Source: Pseudomonadota bacterium
GTDB taxonomy: Bacteria > Pseudomonadota > Alphaproteobacteria > Acetobacterales > Acetobacteraceae
Direction of reading: 5' to 3'
DNA length: 57,973 bases
NCBI GenBank assembly: GCA_021805545.1
Contig: JAJZFB010000010.1
Span: forward strand, 1-57,973
Part shown: positions 25,785 through 44,377 of the stretch, in pieces
Layout: each line of letters opens with the position of its first letter
Numbering within the stretch: the stretch's first letter is position 1
Made by a program: the position numbers and the translations under genes
Notes under the pieces: model-generated
Told to the model about the DNA's origin: nothing
What the model saw: the letters and a program-made list of their open reading frames with translations, nothing else
The model's database searches: none

Positions 25785-25827
25785 CTTATTGCGCGGAAAT
25801 TTTTTGGCTCACCTGAAGGAGCGCTTC

Positions 25828-27039
25828 ATGGATCTCAGTTTCTACTCCAACTTTTCCAATTCGCTGGCGGCGCAGGAGGCGCAGATTAACAATCTGCAGC
25901 AGCAAATTTCCAGCGGCCTCTCGGTGCAAACGCCGGACCAGAACCCTGGTGCGTACGAATCCGCCGCGCTTGCAACGGACCAGGTGAGCCGTCTTGCCAA
26001 CGACAATAACACGCAAGCCTCCATCCAAGTGCAGCTTGGCTCGGCCAATAACGCCTATAGCTCGATGATGGGTTTGCTGAATAACGTGCAGAGCATTGTT
26101 GAGCAGGCGTTGAACGGTACAACCAACAGCCAGAACATGAATGCATTGGCGGGGCAGGTGAACAGCGCGCTGCAGCAAATGGTCGCGCTGGGCAACACCA
26201 CCGCGCCCAACGGCACCTATCTGTTCGGCGGCTCGCGCGGCCAGCTTGCGCCGTTTCAGCCAAATTCCAGCGGCAATATCGTCTACTATGGCGATGCCGC
26301 CAGCTCCCAGGCCAGTATTGGCGAGGCCTCCACCGCCAGCACCATTGCCAATGGCACTGTGTTCATCTCGGCCTTACAGGGAGATGGTGTGGGTGCCGTA
26401 ACCGCCAGCAGCGCCAATACCGGTACTGGCCAGGTTATACCCGATGGCGTTGTGAATGCCACGGCGGCGGATGCGTTCCAGCAAGGCAATACGCCCATTA
26501 CCATCACATTTAGCGCGGGCGGCAGCTATAGCGCCACGCAAGGCGGCAGCACCATCGCCACGGGCACGCTTAGCACCACCCCGGGCAGCAGCGGCACCAG
26601 CGTGCAGCTTGCCGGTGTCGAATACAGCATCACCGGCTCCCCCTCCAGCGGAGACAGTTTTTCTATCGCGCCTGCGCGCACGCAATCAGTGTTCTCGCTG
26701 CTGAAGACTGTCTATACAGCCTTGTCCACTGCCGGTGGCACGCAGGCGCAGGTGGCCCAAACCAGCCAGGTTCTCAACCAGAGCCTCGCCGGCATCACAC
26801 AATACCAGCAGGTGGTTACCTCGGCCCAGGCGCAAAATGGCGTGACGCTGGAGGCGCTCGCCAATACCGGTACCGGCAATAACAACCAATCCACCGAGGC
26901 GCAGACCAACATCAACAACGCTACCGCCGTTAACACGCCCGTTGCCATCGCCTCGCTCGACCAGACCATGACCGCATTGCAGGCGGCCATGAAGACGTTT
27001 GGCGCCGTGCAGGGGCTCAGCCTGTTCAACTATATTTAA
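25828..27039 (+). CDS. flgL: Flagellar hook-filament junction protein FlgL (HAP3)
   Basis: FlgL links FlgK to the filament. The 403-residue protein has the flagellin-like N-terminus (LAAQEAQINNLQQQISSG, then VQTPDQNPGAYESA) and a C-terminal helix region (IASLDQTMTALQAAMKTFGAVQGLSLFNYI, landmarks LDQTMTALQAAM and LSLFNYI). The start at 25828 has a ribosome binding site (GAAGGAGC). FlgK is encoded 21 kb away in the opposite operon. The glycosyltransferase gene follows after 12 bases. Confidence 0.9.
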   Translation: MDLSFYSNFSNSLAAQEAQINNLQQQISSGLSVQTPDQNPGAYESAALATDQVSRLANDNNTQASIQVQLGSANNAYSSMMGLLNNVQSIVEQALNGTTNSQNMNALAGQVNSALQQMVALGNTTAPNGTYLFGGSRGQLAPFQPNSSGNIVYYGDAASSQASIGEASTASTIANGTVFISALQGDGVGAVTASSANTGTGQVIPDGVVNATAADAFQQGNTPITITFSAGGSYSATQGGSTIATGTLSTTPGSSGTSVQLAGVEYSITGSPSSGDSFSIAPARTQSVFSLLKTVYTALSTAGGTQAQVAQTSQVLNQSLAGITQYQQVVTSAQAQNGVTLEALANTGTGNNNQSTEAQTNINNATAVNTPVAIASLDQTMTALQAAMKTFGAVQGLSLFNYI

Positions 27040-27051
27040 GGGAGCCGCATC

Positions 27052-30000
27052 ATGCCGGATGCCATTTTCATTGTTGGCTATTACCGTAGCGGCACGTCCG
27101 CCCTGTCGGGCGCGCTTGCGCGCGCGGGTGTTAAATTTTATAACGAAGCCGACCCGAATGAGCACAATCCATTAGGTTTCTATGAAATTCCTGAACTGAT
27201 CGAGTTCGACGTGGAGCTGTTCAACAAGCTCGGCGTGGATTGGACGGATGTGCGTGGTCTGCCGCCGGGCTGGGCGCAGCGTGCCGATCTCGGCACAATG
27301 CTGACCAAGCTGGATGAGATTCTGCGCCGCCGTTTCACGGGCGAGGACCGGCTCTGGGGCCTTAAGCATCCGCATCTTTGCCGCACCTTGCCGCTGTACG
27401 AGCGGGCGGTGCGCCAAGCCGGGCACAAGCCGCATGTGGTGCATATTTTTCGCGACCCCTGGACGGCGGCGGCCAGCCAGAGCCTGAAAAACGGCCTCTC
27501 GCGCGCCCATGCGCTGCTGCTGTGGATGAGCTACGTGACCAATGCCGAGATGCAGGCGCGGCATTTACCCCGCACATGGCTTACCTACCAGGAATTACTG
27601 GCGGATCCCGCCGCGCAGCTTGCCCGGCTGGGGCGGGAATTGCAGTTGCGGCTTGGCAGCGCGCAAGGGCTGGTTGAGGCTGCCGCCTACCTCACCGGCC
27701 AGCTCAACCGCTCCCAGCCTCTGCCACGGGCCGATTTGTGCCGCCCGCTCGCGCATTTGGTACAGCAAACCTGGGACGCGATTTGCCAGCGCAAACTCAG
27801 CCCGGCCTTGTGGGATGGTTTCGCGGCAGAGACGGCTGACCTGGCCGGGTTTCTTACCGAAATCGGCGCCAGCCGCGGCCGTGTCATTCCAGCACTGGGC
27901 GGTTCGTTCGCGCCGCCCGCCACCACCGGGGGCATGTCTGCCGCCGGCATACGCCCCCCCGAGCGCACCGACGAAGGCGCACAGGCAAGGTTGCGGGCGT
28001 TGCAGGCTGAGGCGGGGGCGTTACCGCGCCTCTGCGTCATCATCGCCGCCCCGCGCGGCCGCGCCGCCGCCGTTAATGGCACGCTGGAATCGCTGAACGC
28101 GCAATGGTTCAAACCCGCCACCATCCGCATTCTCGCCGCCGAGGAAGTGGCCATTGAAGGCATCACCACCATTGCCGTGCCAGCGGAGCCAGAGGCCGCC
28201 ACGCGCATGGCCTGCGCCGAGCTTAACCGGCAAGCGCGTGAAGCGGATTATGTCGCCATCATCAATGCGGGCGATACGGTGGCGCCAGATGCCTGCCTGC
28301 GCTTTGCCCTTGCCGCCAAGGCGGAAGACGCCGCCATGCTGTATTGCGACGAGATTGTACCGCGCGCGGGTGGGGCCTGGGTGCGGCATAAGCCGGGCTG
28401 GGATGTCACGCGCCTGCGCCAGGCCGCCTATATTGGCGATTGGGTGTGGTATCGCGGCGCCGATGTGCTGCGCGCCGGGGGCTTCAACCCCAACCGCGCC
28501 GGGGCCGAGGAATATGACATGCAGCTCCACATGGCGGAGCTGGGCGCCAAGGTGGCGCGCGTGCCGGAAGCCCTGTTCACCCGCTGCGCCGGGAGCCAGC
28601 GCGATGTTATACCAACCGATATTTTCTGCGCCCGCGCGGCATCATCGCTGAAGGAGCATCTGGAGCGCATAAACCTGCCAGCCGCGGTGCAAAGCCGCCA
28701 GCATCCCGGCCTGTTCCACCATGTGCGCACCATCCGGGATCCTGGCACCACCATAGTGCTGCTGTGCGATGGTGCGGAGATTCCAGCCGTCGATGCCTGG
28801 CTTACCGCGCTGCTCACGGGCGAGGCGTTGAGCGGCCCCATCATTCTTGCGGGGGCGGCGCTCAGCCCGTCCATGCAGGCTTATCTCACCGCCGTCACCC
28901 AACAGGCCGAGACGCTGGAAGGTAAGGTGCTGGCGGTGGCGCCGGCGCCGGAGCTGGGCTTTGCCCAGGTGCTGGAACGGGCTGTTGCCATGGTGGCCAC
29001 ACCGCATCTGGCCATTCTCGATGCCCGTGCCCGCCCTGCCGAGTCCAACTGGGCGCAATTGTTGCGCACGCGCCTGGCCAGCCCGGAGGTGGCCATGGCG
29101 GGCGGAAGAACGCTGGTGCTCACCGGGCCAGAGCCGCGCCAGGCCGTGGTGCATGGCCCCATCGTTATTGGCGCCGATACCAGAATGGGTGCCGGGCACA
29201 GGGCGGATGACCCTGGCCCGGGCGGCTGGCTGCTGGTGGACCAGGAGGCAAGCGCCCTGGCGCCGCCCGGCCTGCTGGCGCGCACCCAGGCGCTGCAGGG
29301 CTGCACTTTCCCGCTGCTGGAGGGCGATGCGCTATGGACCGATCTGGGCGCGCAATTGCGGGCCGCGGGCGGCAAGCTGGTCTGGACGCCCGATGCCTCC
29401 TTTTTTGCCCCGCCGGAGGTGGCCCAAATTGACCATGGCAATACCTTCCGCAACGGCACGGCGGCGGCACAGGCGTTGCCCTGGGCCGACCCGTATCACC
29501 ACCCCGCTTTGTCGCTGCATGGCAATTTGCTGAGTACCGAAGCGCGCACCGGCCTGTTCCGCTCTACCCCGCCCGACCCGCTAAGCCTGCTGGTCAGCGG
29601 CGAGCCCCTCACCGGCATGCCGGTGCTCAACGCCGCCCGCGCCCTGCGCCGTGCCGGGCTGGCCGAGGCCGATTGGGTGCCGGACCTGCCTGGCGCCGCC
29701 GATCTTGGCCGCCGTGCCCCGGTATGCTGGGTGCGTGTCAACCCGCAGCGTGCTCCGCGCCCGTACAGCCCGGCTTATACCGCCATCTACACCCAGGTTC
29801 CGGCGCAAGAGGCGCTGCCCGCGCTGAGCCAGGCTGGCGCTGTTTATGCCACCTCGCCGGGGCTGGTCACACAGCTTCGCCGCCTGGGTGGCGAGGCCAA
29901 GCCGGTTTCGCTCTGGCGCCCGGCGCTCAGCCCGCGCATCTGGCAGGAACTTACCTTTGGCACGGGGTTGAACACCAAGCCGCGCGTGCTGTGGTTCGAT

Positions 30001-30498
30001 GAAGGCATCGCCCCGCCCTGGCTGGCCGATCTCATCAACGGCACGCTGGAGATTGCCTCCTGGATCGTGGTTGAGCGCAAGGGCGCGGGTTATGCCGGAT
30101 CGGTGGCACGCATCGGCATGCAGGAATCGGAGTTTGCCTGGGCGCAAACCATGGCGGAGCTGGGGCCGCAGATCATGATCCGCCCGGCTGCCGCAGCCAC
30201 CCATGCCGACCATTACCCCGCCCTCATTGCCGCCGCCGCGGGCTGCCGTTTGCTGGTGGATGAGCGGCTGGACACGCCACCCAGCCTGGGCGCCCTGGCC
30301 CTGCCGCCGCGCGCCAATGCCTGGGGCGAGGCACTGAAAGGCGCCATTACCGGGCTGCAGGCCACGCTGGAGCAGGGCGCCACCACCCGTGCCGCCGCCC
30401 TTGCCCTGCCGGGGCTGGAAGATGCGCCGCCGCCATGGCTCGGCTTGCCCGTGGCCCCGCAAGCGGGCAGCGCGGCTTACCAGAGTGCCGCCGAATGA
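27052..30498 (+). CDS. Multidomain sulfotransferase/glycosyltransferase within the flagellar operon
   Basis: The product is 1148 residues. Residues 1-200 look like a sulfotransferase: FIVGYYRSGTSAL (residues 6-18) fits the PAPS 5'-phosphosulfate loop, and HIFRDPWTAAASQS (131-144, with R134 and S142) fits the 3'-phosphate site. Residues about 325-550 are a GT2-like domain with DYVAIINAGDTVAPDA, YCDEI and AEEYDMQLHMAELG. Residues about 565-840 look like a second, degenerate GT2-like unit ending in DPYHHPALSLHG. The last 300 residues resemble a GT-B-type domain, less surely. A good ribosome binding site (GGGAG) precedes the ATG. It lies between flgL and flgA and overlaps flgA in an ATGA. Modification of flagellin or another exported flagellar protein is the obvious inference, but substrate and sugar are unknown. 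Confidence 0.75.
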   Translation: MPDAIFIVGYYRSGTSALSGALARAGVKFYNEADPNEHNPLGFYEIPELIEFDVELFNKLGVDWTDVRGLPPGWAQRADLGTMLTKLDEILRRRFTGEDRLWGLKHPHLCRTLPLYERAVRQAGHKPHVVHIFRDPWTAAASQSLKNGLSRAHALLLWMSYVTNAEMQARHLPRTWLTYQELLADPAAQLARLGRELQLRLGSAQGLVEAAAYLTGQLNRSQPLPRADLCRPLAHLVQQTWDAICQRKLSPALWDGFAAETADLAGFLTEIGASRGRVIPALGGSFAPPATTGGMSAAGIRPPERTDEGAQARLRALQAEAGALPRLCVIIAAPRGRAAAVNGTLESLNAQWFKPATIRILAAEEVAIEGITTIAVPAEPEAATRMACAELNRQAREADYVAIINAGDTVAPDACLRFALAAKAEDAAMLYCDEIVPRAGGAWVRHKPGWDVTRLRQAAYIGDWVWYRGADVLRAGGFNPNRAGAEEYDMQLHMAELGAKVARVPEALFTRCAGSQRDVIPTDIFCARAASSLKEHLERINLPAAVQSRQHPGLFHHVRTIRDPGTTIVLLCDGAEIPAVDAWLTALLTGEALSGPIILAGAALSPSMQAYLTAVTQQAETLEGKVLAVAPAPELGFAQVLERAVAMVATPHLAILDARARPAESNWAQLLRTRLASPEVAMAGGRTLVLTGPEPRQAVVHGPIVIGADTRMGAGHRADDPGPGGWLLVDQEASALAPPGLLARTQALQGCTFPLLEGDALWTDLGAQLRAAGGKLVWTPDASFFAPPEVAQIDHGNTFRNGTAAAQALPWADPYHHPALSLHGNLLSTEARTGLFRSTPPDPLSLLVSGEPLTGMPVLNAARALRRAGLAEADWVPDLPGAADLGRRAPVCWVRVNPQRAPRPYSPAYTAIYTQVPAQEALPALSQAGAVYATSPGLVTQLRRLGGEAKPVSLWRPALSPRIWQELTFGTGLNTKPRVLWFDEGIAPPWLADLINGTLEIASWIVVERKGAGYAGSVARIGMQESEFAWAQTMAELGPQIMIRPAAAATHADHYPALIAAAAGCRLLVDERLDTPPSLGALALPPRANAWGEALKGAITGLQATLEQGATTRAAALALPGLEDAPPPWLGLPVAPQAGSAAYQSAAE

Positions 30499-31202
30499 CC
30501 CCGCGCCGCGCCGCGCTGCTGGCGGCCGGTGCCATCTGGCCGGGCTATGCCTTGGCCGGGCAGCCGCCAGCAGGGCAGGGGGCTGCGCCAATGCAAAAAC
30601 CGGCGGCGGTGGCGCAGGCGGTGCGGCAGGCGGCGCAGGCCCTGGCGCCCAGCGGGGCCACACTCAGCCTTGGCCCCGTTACCGGCGCCCGCTTTATGCG
30701 CGCCTGCCCCGCCCCGCTGGATGTGAGCATGAGCGGCATAACCCCCTACGAGCAGGCCACGGTGCATTGCCCGGCCCTGGGCTGGACGCTGTATGTCACC
30801 GTCACCGTTATGCAGCGCGAGGCCGTGGTGGTCGCGGCACGGCCCATTATCCCTGGCAAGCCGCTCACGGCGGACGACCTCAAACTCGTCACCCTGCCAG
30901 TGCAGCAATTCGCTGGCCGCCAGGTATATTTCGGCACATCCCAGCTCATTGGCGCCACGCCCGACATGGCGCTGGCCGCGGGCGTGCCCATTACCGCCGA
31001 TGCCGTGCAGGCGCCCATTATGGTGAAGGCCGGGCAGACCGTGACGGTAAACGTGCAAAGCGGCGATGTGCTGCTCACGCTCGATGCCACGGCGGAGCAG
31101 ACAGGCCGCATCGGCGACACGATTTTGCTGCTCAACCCCGCCACGGGCCGCCGCTTTACCGCGCAGGTTACGGCAGGCGGCGTGGAGCTGCGCCTGCAAT
31201 GA
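30495..31202 (+). CDS. flgA: Flagellar P-ring assembly chaperone FlgA
   Basis: FlgA is a periplasmic chaperone for FlgI. From the ATG at 30495 the product is 235 residues with a Sec-type signal peptide (RRAALLAAGAIWPGYALA). The C-terminal SAF-like domain reads VVAARPIIPGKPLTADDLKL, followed by PIMVKAGQTVTVNVQSGDVLLTLDATA and a closing GRRFTAQVTAGGVELRL. Its target FlgI is encoded 25 kb away in the leftward operon, so the two operons must be co-expressed. Confidence 0.9.
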   Translation: MTPRRAALLAAGAIWPGYALAGQPPAGQGAAPMQKPAAVAQAVRQAAQALAPSGATLSLGPVTGARFMRACPAPLDVSMSGITPYEQATVHCPALGWTLYVTVTVMQREAVVVAARPIIPGKPLTADDLKLVTLPVQQFAGRQVYFGTSQLIGATPDMALAAGVPITADAVQAPIMVKAGQTVTVNVQSGDVLLTLDATAEQTGRIGDTILLLNPATGRRFTAQVTAGGVELRLQ

Positions 31203-31297: not shown

Positions 31298-32812
31298 ATG
31301 TCGGCCGTCGGTTCTATCCTTACCAATAGCGGCGCTTTGCAGGCGCTCAATTCCATCGCGAACACCACCTCGACCAACAGCAATCTGGAAGCGCAGCTTT
31401 CCAGCGGCCTGTCGATCAACTCGCCCTCCAACAATCCGGCCGGCTATATTACCGCGCAGGGCTTCACCTCGCAGCTCAATGGCATCACCCAGGCCGTTTC
31501 CAATGCCAACCAGGGTGTCTCTTTGCTGCAAACGGCGCAGGGCGCCATCACCCAGCAGATTGGCGTTGTACAGCAGCTCAACTCCATTGCCGTGCAGGCC
31601 GCCAACGGCACGCAAACCCCGGCGGAATCGCAGTCTCTGCAAAATCTGGTCGGGCAGCTCGTCGGCCAGGTGAACACCATCGCGAACCAGACGCAGTTCA
31701 ACAATATCAGCCTGCTCAATGGCAGCTTCTCCGGCGTGCAGTTCCAGGTGGGCGCCAATGAGGGGCAGACCATGAGCCTCTCCATCGGCAACCTTGCCGC
31801 CTCGGCCATTGGCATGAACGCCTCCACCGTATCTGGCACCACCGTGTACGGCACCAACGTCAAATCCACTTCGGCGGCGCTTACGCTGGCGGCTTCGGCG
31901 GCCAAAATTGCGTCCGGCGGGGCTGGCAAGTTCAGCACCACCGGCTCGCTCGCCGTTACCGGCGCCAATGGCGGCCAGGCCAAGGTGGCTATCTCCAAGG
32001 CTCAGGAATCCGCTGCCTCGCTGGCCTCGGCCATTAATGGCGTGTCTGGCACCACGGGCGTGCAGGCGCAGGCCACCACCACCATCACGCTGGCCATGGG
32101 CACGGCTGGCACGGGTGCGGGCTATAGCTTCAACATTCAGGCCGGCAAGGGTTCTGGCGGCACCAACGGCTCGGGCATTGGCACCAAGCAGGCCATTAAT
32201 GCCTCGTCCGCCTCGCAGATTGTCAGCCAGATCAATGGCCAGTCCTCCACCAGCGGTATTGTTGCCGCGCTCGATACAAACGGCAATGTCACGCTGACAC
32301 AGACCTCCGGCTACAACATCAACATCACGGGTATGAGCTCCGGCTCCATGAAAACCGTTGGCACCACGGCCAGCACCATCAAAACAGGCGCGGGCACGGC
32401 TTCGGCGGTCATTCAGGGGCAGGTGCAGTTCCAGTCTTCCGGTGCCTTCAGCGTGGGCAATGCTGGCAATATCGGCTTGTCCATCAAGTCCGGCCTTACG
32501 TCGCTATCCTCCGTCAATGTTTCCACCACGGCGGGTGCCAACACGGCCATCAATGTGGTCAAATACGCCCTTGGCGCGCTCAACAACCAGGGCGGCCAGC
32601 TTGGCGCCGTGCAGCAGGCGTTGACGGCGAACATCAACAACCTCAACACCACCTCGCAGAATCTTACCACCGCCCTGGGCGTGGTGCAGGATGCCAACAT
32701 CCCCGCGGTCAGCAATCAGCTCACCGAGGCGCAGATTCAGGCGCAATCCGGCGTGGCCGCGCTCAAATCCTCCACCACGCTGCAGCAGAGCTATCTCTCG
32801 CTGCTGCCGTAA
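31298..32812 (+). CDS. fliC: Flagellin, filament protein
   Basis: The 504-residue flagellin has the conserved terminal domains. The N-terminus reads SGALQALNSIANTTSTNSNLEAQLSSGLSI, landmarks ALQALN and LSSGLSI, and the C-terminus ALKSSTTLQQSYLSLLP. The middle (about 170-410) is long and very rich in Ser, Thr, Gly and Ala, a plausible target for O-linked modification. At the position of the TLR5-contact segment (LQRIRELAVQ in Salmonella) it reads VQQLNSIAVQAANG, lacking the key Arg, as in other alphaproteobacteria. AAGGAG precedes the ATG. A hairpin terminator follows, so fliC is probably its own transcript. Confidence 0.95.
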   Translation: MSAVGSILTNSGALQALNSIANTTSTNSNLEAQLSSGLSINSPSNNPAGYITAQGFTSQLNGITQAVSNANQGVSLLQTAQGAITQQIGVVQQLNSIAVQAANGTQTPAESQSLQNLVGQLVGQVNTIANQTQFNNISLLNGSFSGVQFQVGANEGQTMSLSIGNLAASAIGMNASTVSGTTVYGTNVKSTSAALTLAASAAKIASGGAGKFSTTGSLAVTGANGGQAKVAISKAQESAASLASAINGVSGTTGVQAQATTTITLAMGTAGTGAGYSFNIQAGKGSGGTNGSGIGTKQAINASSASQIVSQINGQSSTSGIVAALDTNGNVTLTQTSGYNINITGMSSGSMKTVGTTASTIKTGAGTASAVIQGQVQFQSSGAFSVGNAGNIGLSIKSGLTSLSSVNVSTTAGANTAINVVKYALGALNNQGGQLGAVQQALTANINNLNTTSQNLTTALGVVQDANIPAVSNQLTEAQIQAQSGVAALKSSTTLQQSYLSLLP

Positions 32813-39294: not shown

Positions 39295-40773
39295 ATGGGC
39301 TGGCGGGCATTTGCCGGGCGCGTTTTCGGCAAGCAGGCGGCCTTGGTGCTGTTTCTGCTCTGCGCCTTACCGCTTACCATCTTCACCGCCCTCATTACCC
39401 CGCCCAGCCAATCACCCGACGAGGTGGCGCATTATGCCCGCACGCTGGGGCTGCTGCGCGGTGTGCTGTTGAGCGACAAGCACCAGATGACCGATCCGCT
39501 GACCGGCAAGCCGGAATGGCTGACCACCATAAGCGTGGATGCCGGGCTGCTTTCCGGCTCTTTTGGCGCGGTAACCCTGACGGGGCCGGGCCAGCGTCCG
39601 GTGGAAACGCAGCAGGATTGGAACACGATAGAGACCCTGCCGCAGAACCACGCGTTGCTGGCGGTAAACCTGCCCAATACCGCAACCTATTTTCCCGCCG
39701 CTTATCTGCCCGCCTTTATGGGGGTGGTTCTGGCCAAATACGGGTTCAACGAGACACCGCTGCATTGCTTCCTCACGGCGCGCATTTTCATGGCGCTGTC
39801 TTACGTGGCGGCGGGGCTGGGCGCGCTGGCCGTGGCGGCCTATGGCGAGGGGTTGCTGTTGACAGTGCTGCTGTTGCCCATGCCGCTGTTTTTGGGCGGC
39901 ACGCTCAACCAGGATGGGCTGCTGACGGCGATGACCTGCCTGGCCTGCGCCTTTTTAACCCGTAACACGCGCGCGGCGCGGCTGGCCGGGCTGGTGGTGT
40001 TCGCCATCGTGCTGGGGGCCAAGCCGCCTTATGTTCTGCTGATGGGCGCGTTCGCCTTGCCGCTTTTCGCGCCTGGCTTCTGGCGGCGCTTTGCCGATAT
40101 GATGCTGGTGATGCTGCCCGTGGCGGCCTGGACGGTGATCATCGCGCTGTTTGTGGTGGTGGCTTATGGCAAAGTGCAGTACCACCCCGGCCCGCTTTAC
40201 GCGGGTGACCATAGCGTGATGATGGACCATGCCAATGCCGGGCTGCAATGGCAGATTCTCGCCCAGCGGCCGCGGCGCTTTCTGGCGCTGCCTTATTACA
40301 GTACGCTGCAATTTGCCTATGCGGACCTGATAAGCCTGATTGGCGTGCTGGGGCCGCTGCAGTTGCAGCTTGGGCATGGCTATTACATGTGGTGGAGCTT
40401 TGCGCTGGTATGCGCCATGCTGGGGGTGCTGGTAACACGCCGGCCAGAAATTTTGCCGCCGCGTGTGGCGGGGGTGAATTTTGTGGCCGTGATGGCGGCT
40501 ATTGGTGTGACTTACTGGCTGTTGAATATTATTTTCTACCTCGATTGGACCAATGTCGGGCTGCCTTATATCGAGGGTATACAGGGCCGCTATCTGCTCA
40601 TTTTTATTCCCTTCCTGCTCGTTGCCATTCCCAATTTGCAATCTTTGCCCGGCCTGCGCCGCTGGCGCTTTGCCCTGCCGCCGTTGCTGCCAGCGCTGCC
40701 GGCCATGGCGCTGGGGCTATACGATTTGGGATTTATTCCGCTGAAACTGGTTTTGAATTATTACCTGCATTAG
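39295..40773 (+). CDS. DUF2142-type polytopic membrane protein
   Basis: The 492-residue protein has about 11 or 12 hydrophobic helices and begins, after the first helix, with ALITPPSQSPDEVAHYARTLGLL. This PPDE..H-like segment is typical of DUF2142 proteins, which resemble GT-C-fold lipid-linked sugar transferases. A large periplasmic loop follows helix 1. It starts a likely operon with a GT2 transferase, so a part in glycan or glycolipid assembly at the inner membrane is likely. AAGGGAG sits 6 bases before the ATG. No catalytic function is assigned. Confidence 0.75.
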   Translation: MGWRAFAGRVFGKQAALVLFLLCALPLTIFTALITPPSQSPDEVAHYARTLGLLRGVLLSDKHQMTDPLTGKPEWLTTISVDAGLLSGSFGAVTLTGPGQRPVETQQDWNTIETLPQNHALLAVNLPNTATYFPAAYLPAFMGVVLAKYGFNETPLHCFLTARIFMALSYVAAGLGALAVAAYGEGLLLTVLLLPMPLFLGGTLNQDGLLTAMTCLACAFLTRNTRAARLAGLVVFAIVLGAKPPYVLLMGAFALPLFAPGFWRRFADMMLVMLPVAAWTVIIALFVVVAYGKVQYHPGPLYAGDHSVMMDHANAGLQWQILAQRPRRFLALPYYSTLQFAYADLISLIGVLGPLQLQLGHGYYMWWSFALVCAMLGVLVTRRPEILPPRVAGVNFVAVMAAIGVTYWLLNIIFYLDWTNVGLPYIEGIQGRYLLIFIPFLLVAIPNLQSLPGLRRWRFALPPLLPALPAMALGLYDLGFIPLKLVLNYYLH

Positions 40774-40801
40774 CCTTGCCCCAACCACGCCGGAGCGTTT
40801 G

Positions 40802-41974
40802 ATGGATTGTGAACTGACGATTGTGATGCCCTGCCTGAACGAGGCGGAAACCCTGGCGCGCTGCATTACCAAGGCGCAGGATTATCTGCGCCGCAGCGGT
40901 GTTTCGGGCGAGGTGCTGATTGGCGATAATGGCTCGGCCGACGGCAGCCAGGAGATTGCCCGCAACCTTGGCGCGCGGGTGGTGGATGTGCCGGTGCGCG
41001 GCTATGGCGCGGCCATTTATGGCGCGGTGATGCAGGCCAAGGGGCGCTTCTGCATCATGGGCGATAGCGATGATTCCTACGATTTCTCTAACCTCGACCC
41101 GTTTGTGCAGGCTTTGCGCGGCGGCGCCGAGCTGGTGATGGGCAACCGCTTCAAGGGCGGCATCCGCCCGGGCGCCATGCCGTGGAAAAACCGTTACATT
41201 GGCAACCCAATCCTCTCCGGGCTGGGGCGGGTTTTGTTCAAAACGCCGATCCGCGATTTCCATTGCGGGATTCGCGGGTTTTCGCGCGCGGCGTTTTTGC
41301 GGATGGATCTGCGCACCACGGGGATGGAGTTCGCATCCGAAATGGTCATCAAGGCCACGCTGCTGAAGATGAATATTCAGGAAGTGCCGACCACGCTGGA
41401 CAAGGATGGGCGCTCGCGCCCGCCGCACCTGCGCCCGTGGCGCGATGGCTGGCGGCATCTGCGCTTCATGCTGCTGTTTTCGCCCAACTGGCTGTTTTTG
41501 TACCCCGGCGTGCTGCTGATGCTGGCGGGTATTATGCTGGGCGGGGCGTTGATGGCCAGTACGGTAACGGTTGGCGGGCTGCGGCTTTCGGTCGGCACAC
41601 TTATTTATTGCGCGATGATGATCGAGGTGGGGTTCCAGGGTTTGTGGTTCGCGCTGCTCTCGCGGGCCTACGCGGTGCAGGAAGGGCTGGTGCCGGCCAG
41701 CGAACGGATGCGCCGGATAGACAAGGCGGTAACGCTGGAAGGCGGGCTGCTGGCCGGGCTGGCGCTTTTGGCGGTGGGGTTCGTGCTGTTCCTGCGTGCC
41801 TTCAGCTTGTGGTCTGGCGCCCGCTTTGGCGTGCTGAATGTGGATGAGATCGCGCGCATCTGCATTGGCTCGGCGCTGGCGATTTCGCTGGGGTTCGAGG
41901 TCATGTTCTCCAGCCTGCTGTTGAGCACGCTGCGGCTGAATGTGCGCCATATGTCCGCGTTGCAGGGCGGCTGA
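40802..41974 (+). CDS. Membrane-anchored GT2 glycosyltransferase, dolichol/polyprenyl-phosphate-sugar type
   Basis: The 390-residue protein starts with a GT-A domain (ELTIVMPCLNEAETLARCI, LIGDNGSADGSQEIA, metal-binding DSDDSYDF and NRFKGGIRPGAMPWKNR). This is the pattern of DPM1-like enzymes that load a sugar onto polyprenyl phosphate. About four membrane helices follow from residue 230. The ATG at 40802 has GGAG upstream. It follows the DUF2142 gene and overlaps the next gene in a TGATG, so a donor-making role for the DUF2142 protein is plausible. Confidence 0.82.
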   Translation: MDCELTIVMPCLNEAETLARCITKAQDYLRRSGVSGEVLIGDNGSADGSQEIARNLGARVVDVPVRGYGAAIYGAVMQAKGRFCIMGDSDDSYDFSNLDPFVQALRGGAELVMGNRFKGGIRPGAMPWKNRYIGNPILSGLGRVLFKTPIRDFHCGIRGFSRAAFLRMDLRTTGMEFASEMVIKATLLKMNIQEVPTTLDKDGRSRPPHLRPWRDGWRHLRFMLLFSPNWLFLYPGVLLMLAGIMLGGALMASTVTVGGLRLSVGTLIYCAMMIEVGFQGLWFALLSRAYAVQEGLVPASERMRRIDKAVTLEGGLLAGLALLAVGFVLFLRAFSLWSGARFGVLNVDEIARICIGSALAISLGFEVMFSSLLLSTLRLNVRHMSALQGG

Positions 41975-43467
41975 TGGAATATGTCATCGGCTCCGGCCCG
42001 GCGGGTATGGCCTGCGCCGCGGCGCTGCTGGCGCGCGGGCGCGATGTAACCATGCTGGATGCCGGGCTGACGCTGGAACCCGGGCACGCGGCCCTGCGCA
42101 GCGCCATGGCAGCGCAGGTGCCGGAACATTGGACGGCGGAGCAGCACGCCATGCGGCGTATGAAGCTCGGCGCGGAAATGCCGGAGTTCAAACTGAGCCA
42201 TGGCTCCGACTACCCTTACCGCGCCGCGCCGGGGGCGCCATCTTTGGCGCTTGAGGTGCCCGGGGTTGCGGCCTCTTACGCGCTGGGCGGGCTTTCCAAC
42301 GTGTGGGGCGCGGCCATGCTGCCCTACCGCGCGGCGGATATGGCGGGCTGGCCGGTGGGGATGGAGGCAATGGCGGATGCCTACCGCCATGTGCTGAGCC
42401 TGGTGCCAATGGCCGGCCAGGCGGATGCGCTGGAGGCGGATTGGCCCTTTTATGTGCGCCCGCGTGCCGATATGCCGTTGAGCCGCCAGGCCGTGGCGCT
42501 GCTGAAGCATTTCGAGCGCGCCAAAATACCGGGCGTTGTGGCCGGGCGGGCGCGGCTTGCCGTGCGCGCGGCGGAGTGCATAGCCTGCGGCGAATGTTTG
42601 AATGGCTGCCCGCGCGAGCTGATTATCTCGGCCCGGCACAGGCTGCCCGCGCTGCGCCAGGCGGGGATGCATTACATTCCCGGTGTGGTGGTGCGTGGCG
42701 TGGCCGAGGATGCGGATGGTGTTATGATCCATGCGCTTACGCCCGAGGGCGGGCGGGTGTTCGCCGGAGAGCGCGTATTTGTGGCGGCGGGCGTATATGG
42801 CAGCACCGCGCTCATGCTGCGCTCGCTGGGGCTGGCGCGTGCCGAGATTCTCGATTCGCAATATTTCACCTTGCCGCTGCTGGGGCTGAAGGCCGCCAAG
42901 GGCGTAATGCAAGAGCGGCTGCACACGCTGGCGCAGCTTTTTGTGGAAATCGAGGATGCGGCGGTGGAAGCGCGCAATGTGCATTTGCAGCTATATGGTT
43001 ATTCCGATGTGCTGGAGGCGATGATCGCGCGGAAGCTGGGGCCGCTGAAGGGCTTGCGCGCATTGCTGCTGGCGCGGGCACTGGTGGTGCAGGGCTATTT
43101 GCATTCCGATGTTTCTGGCCGGCTGGAGGCGCGGCTGGAGGGTGAGGGGATGCGCGTGACGGCGCGCCGCAACCCGGCAACCCGTGAGGTGCTGAAGCGC
43201 GTTGTGCGCAAAATTGGCCAGATGAAGCTGGGCGCGCGGCCATTGGCGCCATTATTGCACGAAACATTGCCAGGGCGTGGCTACCACTCTGGAGGCTCGT
43301 TCCCCATGCGCGAAGCCCCGGGTGTGGGGGAGACGGATGATATGGGCCGCCCATACGGGCGGGTGCGCACGCATATTGTGGATTCGTCGGTATTCCCCAC
43401 CGTGCCGGCCGCAACCATAACGCTGAGCGTGATGGCCAATGCCTGGCGCATAGGGTTTGAGAGCTAG
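41974..43467 (+). CDS. GMC-like FAD oxidoreductase with a ferredoxin-type cysteine motif
   Basis: The 497-residue protein has an N-terminal FAD-binding Rossmann motif (VIGSGPAGMACAAALLARG, residues 4-22), the LGGLSNVWGAAM segment and a GMC-type C-terminus (HIVDSSVFPTVPAATITLSVMANA). Residues 202-213 read CIACGECLNGCP, which is the C-x2-C-x2-C-x3-C-P motif of [4Fe-4S] ferredoxins, so an iron-sulfur cluster in addition to FAD is likely. The substrate is unknown. It overlaps the GT2 gene by one base and is followed by an epimerase-like gene, suggesting oxidation of a sugar or lipid-linked sugar. Confidence 0.75.
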   Translation: MEYVIGSGPAGMACAAALLARGRDVTMLDAGLTLEPGHAALRSAMAAQVPEHWTAEQHAMRRMKLGAEMPEFKLSHGSDYPYRAAPGAPSLALEVPGVAASYALGGLSNVWGAAMLPYRAADMAGWPVGMEAMADAYRHVLSLVPMAGQADALEADWPFYVRPRADMPLSRQAVALLKHFERAKIPGVVAGRARLAVRAAECIACGECLNGCPRELIISARHRLPALRQAGMHYIPGVVVRGVAEDADGVMIHALTPEGGRVFAGERVFVAAGVYGSTALMLRSLGLARAEILDSQYFTLPLLGLKAAKGVMQERLHTLAQLFVEIEDAAVEARNVHLQLYGYSDVLEAMIARKLGPLKGLRALLLARALVVQGYLHSDVSGRLEARLEGEGMRVTARRNPATREVLKRVVRKIGQMKLGARPLAPLLHETLPGRGYHSGGSFPMREAPGVGETDDMGRPYGRVRTHIVDSSVFPTVPAATITLSVMANAWRIGFES

Positions 43468-43512
43468 TGTGATGGTTCTGAAATCCGTTGGATTTCAGAA
43501 CCATCACACTAG
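43464..43512. repeat. Long perfect palindrome at the stop codon of the GMC-like gene
   Basis: Two 23-base arms around a GTT loop form a perfect hairpin that includes the TAG stop (43465-43467). The arms contain CTGAAATC and GATTTCAG next to GTGAT and ATCAC. A related element with the same GTT loop lies at 46048-46109. It may end the transcript, although there is no T tract, and it looks like a mobile palindromic repeat. Confidence 0.75.
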
Positions 43513-43546
43513 AGCGGGATTGCCGCAACAGGGTTAGGAGGCGGGC

Positions 43547-44377
43547 ATGATAGCGGTGACGGGTGCAAATGGCTTTGTCGGCGGCATTATTGCCGCGGGG
43601 CTGGCGGATTTGGGCGTGCTGCGGCTGGTGCGGCGCCCGGCGGGGCGGGAAGATCTGGCCTGGAGCTTTGATACGCCGGCTGATGTGCTGGCCGGCGAGT
43701 TGCGGGCGCATGGGGTGACGCACCTAGTGCACACGGCCTGGGACATGCAGGCCAGCAAGCTGGAAGAGCTGCGGGCAGGCTGCGTGGCGGGCAGCGTACG
43801 GGTGGTGGAGGCGGCACATATGGCGGGGGTGCGGGTGATTTTCATCTCCACCATCAGCGCGTTTGCGGGCGCGCGCTCGGCCTATGGGCGGGCCAAATTG
43901 CAGGTGGAAAGCGCCGTGCTGGCGGCTGGCGGCATTGTGCTGCGGCTGGGGCTGGTGATGGGCGATGGCGGCATGTTCGGCAATCTGCGCGCTACCGTGG
44001 CCAAGGCGAAAATTGTACCCATGATCGGCTCTGGCCGCGCGCCGCAATATTTGCTGGCGGAAGAAACGCTGGTGGAAACATTGCGCCGCGCCATTGCCGG
44101 AGAGCTGGACGAGGCAGGCGGGCCGGTAACCTTGGCCAACCCCACGCCCGTGCCGTTCCGCGATATGGTGCGGCGCCTGGCCCATGCGGCGGGGCGGAAC
44201 GTAACCCTGGTGCCGGTACCCTGGCCGTTGCTTTATGCCGCCTTCCGCGCGGCGGAAGGGCTGGGATTGCGGCTGGGGTTCAAGAGCGATTCCATTATCA
44301 GCTTCATCTACCAGGATCCGGCGCCGGATTTTTCCGTGCAGGCGCGGCTGGGGGTTGAGCCGCCCGGCTGGGGGTGA
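43547..44377 (+). CDS. NAD-dependent epimerase/dehydratase family protein
   Basis: The 276-residue extended short-chain dehydrogenase has the NAD(P) motif TGANGFVGG at the N-terminus, a Ser-x-Tyr-x3-Lys-like catalytic set (STISAF and SAYGRAKLQVE), and TLANPTPVPFRDMVRRLA in the C-terminal substrate domain. Members act on nucleotide sugars or related compounds. AGGAGG precedes the ATG. It follows the GMC-like oxidoreductase after a palindromic spacer and most likely belongs to the same glycan cluster. Confidence 0.8.
   Translation: MIAVTGANGFVGGIIAAGLADLGVLRLVRRPAGREDLAWSFDTPADVLAGELRAHGVTHLVHTAWDMQASKLEELRAGCVAGSVRVVEAAHMAGVRVIFISTISAFAGARSAYGRAKLQVESAVLAAGGIVLRLGLVMGDGGMFGNLRATVAKAKIVPMIGSGRAPQYLLAEETLVETLRRAIAGELDEAGGPVTLANPTPVPFRDMVRRLAHAAGRNVTLVPVPWPLLYAAFRAAEGLGLRLGFKSDSIISFIYQDPAPDFSVQARLGVEPPGWG

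Follow-up and report, generated by a model that had tools for sequence, protein, structure and literature searches.

A putative flagellin-decorating protein of Acidocella joining a sulfotransferase-like domain to a glycosyltransferase-like core

A sulfotransferase-like protein locked into a flagellar locus

The window analysed here, a 57,973-nucleotide stretch of contig JAJZFB010000010.1 from a genome of the Acetobacteraceae that we infer to be an Acidocella, contains a group of flagellar genes among which lies a long open reading frame (ORF). This gene, hereafter X (27052-30498, + strand, ATG start, 1148 amino acids), stands in the order flgL-X-flgA-fliC, and its product carries a sulfotransferase-like N-terminal domain ahead of two units resembling family 2 glycosyltransferases (GT2) and one resembling glycosyltransferases (GT) of the GT-B fold. 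At a probability of roughly 0.6, we read X as an FgtA-type flagellin decorator whose N-terminal catalytic module would be a sulfotransferase dependent on 3'-phosphoadenosine 5'-phosphosulfate (PAPS); such a domain joined to a flagellin-type GT core predicts a sulfated bacterial flagellum. The original prediction, a single polypeptide that could both glycosylate and sulfate the filament, keeps its sulfotransferase-like N-terminus, its GT layout, its coupling to flgA and its flagellar setting but loses glycosylation as stated: only half of "glycosylates and sulfates" stands, because the three GT units are without the textbook catalytic residues.

The end of flgL (27039) and the start of X are separated by 12 bp, and the stop codon TGA of X overlaps the flgA start codon ATG at 30495 (ATGA). 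At the 24 loci surveyed for this junction the overlap is ATGA in 16, GTGA in four and missing in four, so that stop and start overlap in 20/24, as the predicted tight coupling to flgA would have it. The FlgL, FlgA, flagellin, FliD and FliS proteins of the window all have Pfam or NCBIfam support; a search of X itself against NCBIfam gave no match. Altogether 25 X loci were found in 24 genomes, each locus being counted once, and whether X always sits among flagellar genes can be answered plainly, since flgL directly precedes and flgA directly follows it in 25/25. The flagellin gene fliC comes next on the same strand in 18 loci, lies a few kb off on the opposite strand in two, is non-adjacent in three, and in two the contig ends. 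The reality of an ORF with sulfotransferase-like and GT-like parts locked into flagellar genes is confirmed.

The 21 relatives aligned with X are 36-91% identical to it. One locus was entered once per alignment although it had been collected twice (L042 is the same as L047), and one X from an Acidocella metagenome-assembled genome (MAG; L045, 7995-11444) is broken into ORFs of 1018 and 111 amino acids by a frameshift or an assembly error; it was not mended, and was counted as a locus but excluded from the alignments and motif counts. In A. aminolytica (L043), unlike most Acidocella loci, the 7 kb after flgA (downstream of 12111) gave no fliC, fliD or fliS match.

The sulfotransferase-like N-terminus

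The Pfam family Sulfotransfer_3 (PF13469) matches 21 of the 22 X members at E up to 1, the best at 1e-7. Residues R12, G14, S16, G42, E45, K105, R134 and S142 are kept in 24/24 X rows and 38/38 rows of sulfotransferase homologues (S or T being allowed at 16), while position 15 is T in 24/24 X rows and 35/38 homologue rows; the homologues were collected by similarity to the X domain, so part of this sharing is due to selection, and the 38 rows are 35 distinct sequences (duplicate pairs L013/L134, L017/L135 and L024/L137). The residues of YYRSGTS and of the R...S motif presumably contact PAPS, as such motifs do in sulfotransferases. With its motif residues intact in every X row, the sulfotransferase-like domain that had been proposed for the N-terminus is supported. 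A profile search against solved structures was not useful for this part (best E 0.27, to the sulfotransferase 5x2b).

Another protein (L136:7568-10000, 811 amino acids) combines a GT2 domain and a strong Sulfotransfer_3 match at 519-748 with an N-terminal match to X, and perhaps has two sulfotransferase domains.

The glycosyltransferase-like core

Residues 310-946 of X match proteins of 1267-1712 amino acids whose genes, in other classes of the phylum, adjoin flagellin or lie close to it, and a wider search of 54 genomes found a match to the X GT core in 19 of them. From such proteins we drew a comparison set of 12 flagellar-locus GTs, all lying at most 7 kb from flagellin or flgL and eight adjoining one of them directly; the set omits the strong matches G789:C22 (463 bits) and G1034, and takes only G718 and G969 from the weaker ones. 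Aligned by hhalign with these 12, the GT2 pair of X gives E 1.8e-36 over 489 columns and the GT-B tail a probability of 95.9 and E 5.9e-9 over 263 columns. By these alignments, residues 322-1130 of X are a predicted GT2-GT2-GT-B core that is co-linear with the giant GTs beside flagellin in other proteobacteria. Fourteen non-flagellar proteins that carry the GT2 pair extend no more than 136 residues beyond unit 2, which is too short for a GT-B tail.

Neither Pfam nor NCBIfam gave a GT family match for the window's X, and Glyco_trans_2_3 matches 10 of the 22 X members at E up to 1. The Foldseek matches listed for the AlphaFold model of residues 1-566 are GT-A enzymes (WrtF, the chondroitin polymerase K4CP and SpsA), and those for the model of residues 562-1148 are GT-B enzymes (PimA, BshA and SenB); they come without aligned ranges and were assigned to the units of X by fold type and model confidence. 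The second model is poor over its residues 116-280, which leaves homology as the basis for the fold of unit 2. Among solved structures, unit 1 reached a best E of 0.044 (K4CP, 2z87), and unit 2 and the GT-B-like unit obtained chance-like matches only. The layout first read from motifs, GT2, second GT2-like unit and GT-B, is supported by these folds and by the flagellar-locus alignments, and the large GT proteins so arranged that other proteobacteria encode at flagellin or flgL, or close to them, are supportive as well.

What differs among these proteins is the N-terminal module. In the 12 flagellar-locus GTs, Pfam recognises a GT2 in eight and a methyltransferase in two, and at the thresholds used no sulfotransferase was seen in any of the 12. 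The alignments indicate that the slot which elsewhere holds a GT2 or a methyltransferase holds the sulfotransferase-like domain in X.

Altered motifs and the role of the core

The original prediction had called only the second GT unit degenerate, whereas all three are altered. The metal-binding Asp of unit 1 (third motif position) is found in 0/24 X rows, where it is Gly throughout, in 0/12 flagellar-locus GTs and in 14/14 non-flagellar homologues; the base position of unit 1 is E in 8/12 flagellar-locus GTs. Unit 2 of the 14 non-flagellar GTs has NND or NDD plus NDxD, and 24/24 X rows have neither, with W762 instead; the NND is kept in 5/12 flagellar-locus GTs. In the GT-B-like unit, the second Glu of the E-x7-E motif, constant in the 12 flagellar-locus GTs, is I1059 in X, and the first is D1053. 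A DxD metal site with an Asp base, the textbook mark of GT2 enzymes, is missing from units 1 and 2 in 24/24 X rows, and X has no GT unit with intact catalytic residues, of which an FgtA-type enzyme would have at least one. Because this defining feature is missing, we do not file X as an FgtA glycosyltransferase, and the claim that X glycosylates does not stand in its original form.

The units are not equally constrained. Constant columns among 22 rows number 65/290 in the sulfotransferase part, 42/249 in unit 1, 22/239 in unit 2 and 38/309 in the GT-B-like unit. Conservation is higher in unit 1 than in unit 2 for 238/276 X pairs, and for all 84 pairs below 45% identity; by the same measure this holds for 0/10 pairs of those flagellar-locus GTs whose unit 2 is intact, 6/21 where it is degenerate and 41/91 of the non-flagellar ones, pairs that are not independent of each other. 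Unit 1 also has polar residues of its own that are constant in 24/24 X rows (N405, D408, D413, D433, E434, R445, K447, D463, E486 and E487). Our reading is that selection in X maintains the sulfotransferase and unit 1, and that unit 2 and the GT-B-like unit may have turned structural.

Two explanations of the core follow: the GT site of X is of an unconventional kind, or the core is a pseudo-GT that would present flagellin to the sulfotransferase. The first, less likely than not, is that unit 1 is active with an unconventional site (N405-A-G-D408, D433-E434 and E486-E487) and adds a sugar that the sulfotransferase then sulfates. The conservation of unit 1 over unit 2, the reverse of what is seen in the flagellar-locus GTs with an intact unit 2, argues for it, as do its constant polar residues and the precedent of PA1091 (FgtA), which acts on flagellin with GT2 and phosphotransferase activities (PMC11833859). 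Against it stands the Gly in place of the metal Asp. The 12 flagellar-locus GTs are likewise without that Asp, but eight of them show an N-terminal GT2 and five keep the unit 2 NND; there is also no sugar-nucleotide gene beside X.

The second explanation, slightly less probable and on the unlikely side, is that all GT units are dead and bind flagellin, and that the protein does nothing but sulfate a hydroxyl of flagellin or a glycan produced elsewhere. It would account for the loss of textbook residues from every GT unit while the sulfotransferase keeps its own in all 24 rows, and a variable N-terminal module on a common core is what a docking platform would look like; however, unit 1 is constrained like an active site, with nearly twice as many constant columns as unit 2.

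Co-occurrence with one flagellin type

A scan of named genomes yielded 14 X loci, all in Acidocella or MAGs. Within the family, full-length X is present in 11/299 genomes (seven Acidocella and two each from two other genera), and the flagellin type of the window (E <= 1e-15) is present in the same 11/299; the X scans of the family and the class scored only the two best first-look candidates per genome, and a second copy could escape. Both X and the X-type flagellin are missing from four genomes (G130, G217, G249 and G058) that belong to two of the three X-bearing genera. Among 398 genomes of the phylum, a flagellin more than 60% identical (61-62%) occurs in only two others, which come from another family and each have an X (35-36% identity) lying between flgL and flgA. 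In an evenly drawn scan of 385 genomes of the class, full-length X was found only in the window's own genome.

A. facilis has a second complete flagellar locus: both of its loci (L046 and L047) run from flhA to fliS, and each includes an X and a flagellin of its own. FlgL scores above the TIGR02550 cut-off in only 3/130 family genomes, all three of them X carriers. The flagellar system to which X is linked seems to differ in type from the one usual in the family.

This distribution bears on a third explanation, in which X acts on a surface polysaccharide or another substrate and its place in a flagellar operon is incidental. Fusions of a sulfotransferase with GT2 (L065, L067 and L074) do occur in loci without a flagellar BLAST match, and among the family's long non-flagellar proteins the GT2 pair is common. 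We nevertheless rank a general polysaccharide enzyme low, as quite improbable, because all 25 X loci are flagellar; the complete co-occurrence with one flagellin type in the samples and the second A. facilis locus with an X of its own also speak against it. That X is a flagellar regulator or clutch is scarcely credible: a GT2-like flagellar clutch is known in EpsE of Bacillus subtilis (PMC3000366), but EpsE belongs to an exopolysaccharide operon, and the intact sulfotransferase motifs of X would stand idle.

Flagellin composition

The striking feature of the window's flagellin is its scarcity of charge. The 17 X-linked flagellins have 2.8-5.3% charged residues, with 5-14 Lys+Arg and 5-16 Asp+Glu each, against 12.1-18.4% in 11 comparison flagellins and 6.1-18.9% in 15 usual-type flagellins of the family; of 18 comparison flagellin stretches taken, two without flagellin and one with an over-long ORF (L166) were excluded. 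FlgL of the window is low in charge too (5.4%), and X itself has 18.7%. The flagellin middle had been described as very rich in Ser and Thr, which was overstated, as its 28.8% lies within the 22.5-29.5% of the 11 comparison flagellins.

At pH 3 carboxylates are partly protonated, and a sulfate ester keeps its charge. Sulfation would suit an acidophile because the sulfate ester is still charged at that pH.

Points against flagellin sulfation

Several observations weigh against reading X as a flagellin sulfotransferase on a flagellar GT core. In the sulfotransferase part, the profile search matched Sulfotransfer_3 (residues 5-199, E 3.6e-5), but at 24.6 bits, below the curated gathering cut-off of 27 bits; the stand-alone homologue in the window's genome (L077) is also below it, at 22.7 bits. 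The AlphaFold model of this part, built from 14 sequences, is poor, with a predicted local distance difference test (pLDDT) score mostly below 60. Adenosine 5'-phosphosulfate (APS) kinase is the source of PAPS, and the presence of its domain in 15/15 genomes examined counts in favour of a PAPS-dependent enzyme; it does not discriminate, as the 15 comprise X carriers and four genomes without X.

In regards to the descent of the core, X is about equally near to the flagellar-locus GTs (20.7% mean identity) and to the non-flagellar ones (19.4%, hhalign E 3.8e-32), and the mean identity between those two groups (28.0%) is much higher than that of either to X. An unrooted tree of the GT2 pair has three well-supported groups (X, the 12 flagellar-locus GTs and the 14 non-flagellar ones) and does not place X as sister of the flagellar group, so descent of X from flagellar GTs was rejected as a conclusion from the tree. 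As tree and identities gave no support, the case for shared descent with the flagellar-locus GTs comes down to two likenesses, the GT-B tail and the changes in unit 1, and these could also be convergence.

Finally, the Ser/Thr share of the flagellin is unremarkable, and one family flagellin not of the X type (L163) is charge-poor as well (6.1%), so that low flagellin charge may be a plain trait of acidophiles. At three X loci (L043, L050 and L051) the flagellin does not adjoin X, and the fusions in non-flagellar loci mean that the fusion alone is no proof of a flagellar role.

Proposed mode of action

If X is the flagellin decorator that we propose, it would be produced together with FlgL and FlgA, just ahead of flagellin, and in the cytoplasm its GT-derived core would grip flagellin (perhaps FlgL too) before export. 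The N-terminal domain could then place sulfate on the flagellin, the acceptor being either a sugar set by the conserved, unconventional unit 1 or one of flagellin's own Ser, Thr or Tyr hydroxyls. The sulfate would give a near-charge-free filament a negative charge that persists at low pH. The genes, domains, conserved motif residues, locus linkage and co-occurrence with one flagellin type are observed; the enzyme activity, the substrate, the order of the steps and the reason for them are what we propose from these.

A broader and more doubtful extension is that FgtA-type proteins are modular decorators: a GT core that is partly dead would dock flagellin, and the chemistry would fall to exchangeable modules at the N-terminus (GT2, methyltransferase or sulfotransferase). 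X might then be a flagellin sulfotransferase on a retired GT core, and the sulfated, near-charge-free filament an adaptation to acid. If X works as a flagellin sulfotransferase in the way proposed above, there would be a defined gene, substrate and mass shift (+80 Da) to look for in the cultivable A. aromatica, A. facilis and A. aminolytica. It would also become possible to test concretely how surface charge is maintained on a filament at pH 3, and whether FgtA-type GT cores are docking platforms for interchangeable modifying domains.

Features of the window

Table 1. Gene X, its predicted parts and the adjoining flagellar genes
Feature	Position	Strand	Evidence
X, sulfotransferase / GT2 / GT2-like / GT-B-like protein, 1148 amino acids	27052..30498	+	ORF, domain matches, alignment of relatives
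Sulfotransferase-like domain, X residues 1-215	27052..27696	+	Sulfotransfer_3 match at 5-199; motif residues common to 38 homologue rows
YYRSGTS (10-16), 5'-phosphosulfate-loop-like motif	27079..27099	+	R12, G14, T15, S16 in 24/24 X rows
E45, candidate catalytic base of the sulfotransferase	27184..27186	+	24/24 X rows, 38/38 homologue rows; role inferred
RDPWTAAAS (134-142), 3'-phosphate-binding-like R...S motif	27451..27477	+	R134 and S142 in 24/24 X rows, 38/38 homologue rows
GT2-like unit 1, X residues 322-560, conserved but motif-altered	28015..28731	+	pLDDT about 86-95 over 311-430; Foldseek GT-A matches; motif table
NAGD (405-408) where the unit 1 DxDD is expected	28264..28275	+	24/24 X rows; DHDD or DNDD in 14/14 non-flagellar homologues
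E486-E487 where the unit 1 QD catalytic-base motif is expected	28507..28512	+	24/24 X rows; QD in 14/14 non-flagellar homologues
Second GT2-like unit, X residues 567-800, no DxD, no base (DARA, W762)	28750..29451	+	motif table; least conserved unit
GT-B-like unit, X residues 840-1130	29569..30441	+	pLDDT mostly 71-94; Foldseek GT-B matches; hhalign to 12 flagellar-locus GT-B tails
flgL, hook-filament junction protein, directly upstream of X	25825..27039	+	TIGR02550 155.2 bits, cut-off 127.2
flgA, P-ring chaperone	30495..31202	+	TIGR03170 above cut-off (longer ORF 30435-31202) and ChapFlgA; overlap survey
fliC, flagellin, proposed substrate; 19 charged residues in 504	31298..32812	+	Flagellin_N and Flagellin_C; composition

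A possible cassette for a surface glycan or lipid lies farther along the window, at 39295-44374, after genes resembling those of serine biosynthesis; it consists of a DUF2142 membrane protein, a GT2, an oxidoreductase that matches GMC and 4Fe-4S, and an epimerase.

Comparison with known systems

Bacterial flagellins carry sugars and phospho-groups. As to sulfate on a bacterial flagellin, no paper describing it was recognised among those listed by text searches of a PubMed Central collection, as judged from titles and the openings of abstracts; the sulfated surface glycans recognised there by title were all archaeal. In Halobacterium salinarum, sulfotransferases sulfate the sugars of surface glycoproteins (PMC11980604), which resembles the surface-protein sulfation proposed for X, but its glycans are N-linked and made with two separate sulfotransferases and no fusion. 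Compared with the bacterial sulfotransferases of Sulfotransfer_3, X aligns over residues 5-199 and has the eight motif residues in common; it differs in its KHPH for the common KDPR, in its fusion to a flagellar GT-like core and in its score below the cut-off. The alphaproteobacterial fusions L065, L067 and L074 similarly unite an N-terminal sulfotransferase and a GT2 pair in one protein, but theirs has intact DxDD and NND motifs, leaves no room for a C-terminal GT-B and has no flagellar neighbours in the stretches read.

The closest functional parallels are flagellin glycosyltransferases. FgtA (PA1091) of Pseudomonas aeruginosa has its GT2 and phosphotransferase activities in one polypeptide, and its mutant has unglycosylated flagellin; in P. 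syringae, the genes fgt1 and fgt2 are located upstream of fliC, and Fgt1 attaches rhamnose to serine (PMC3927599). X was likened to PA1091 and Fgt1 by their descriptions, its sequence comparison being made with the 12 flagellar-locus proteins of the same phylum. All are large GT2-type proteins beside fliC, and PA1091 also has a second, anion-adding (phospho) activity (PMC11833859); X has a sulfotransferase where PA1091 has its phosphotransferase, lacks an N-terminal GT2, and shows changed residues in each of its three GT units.

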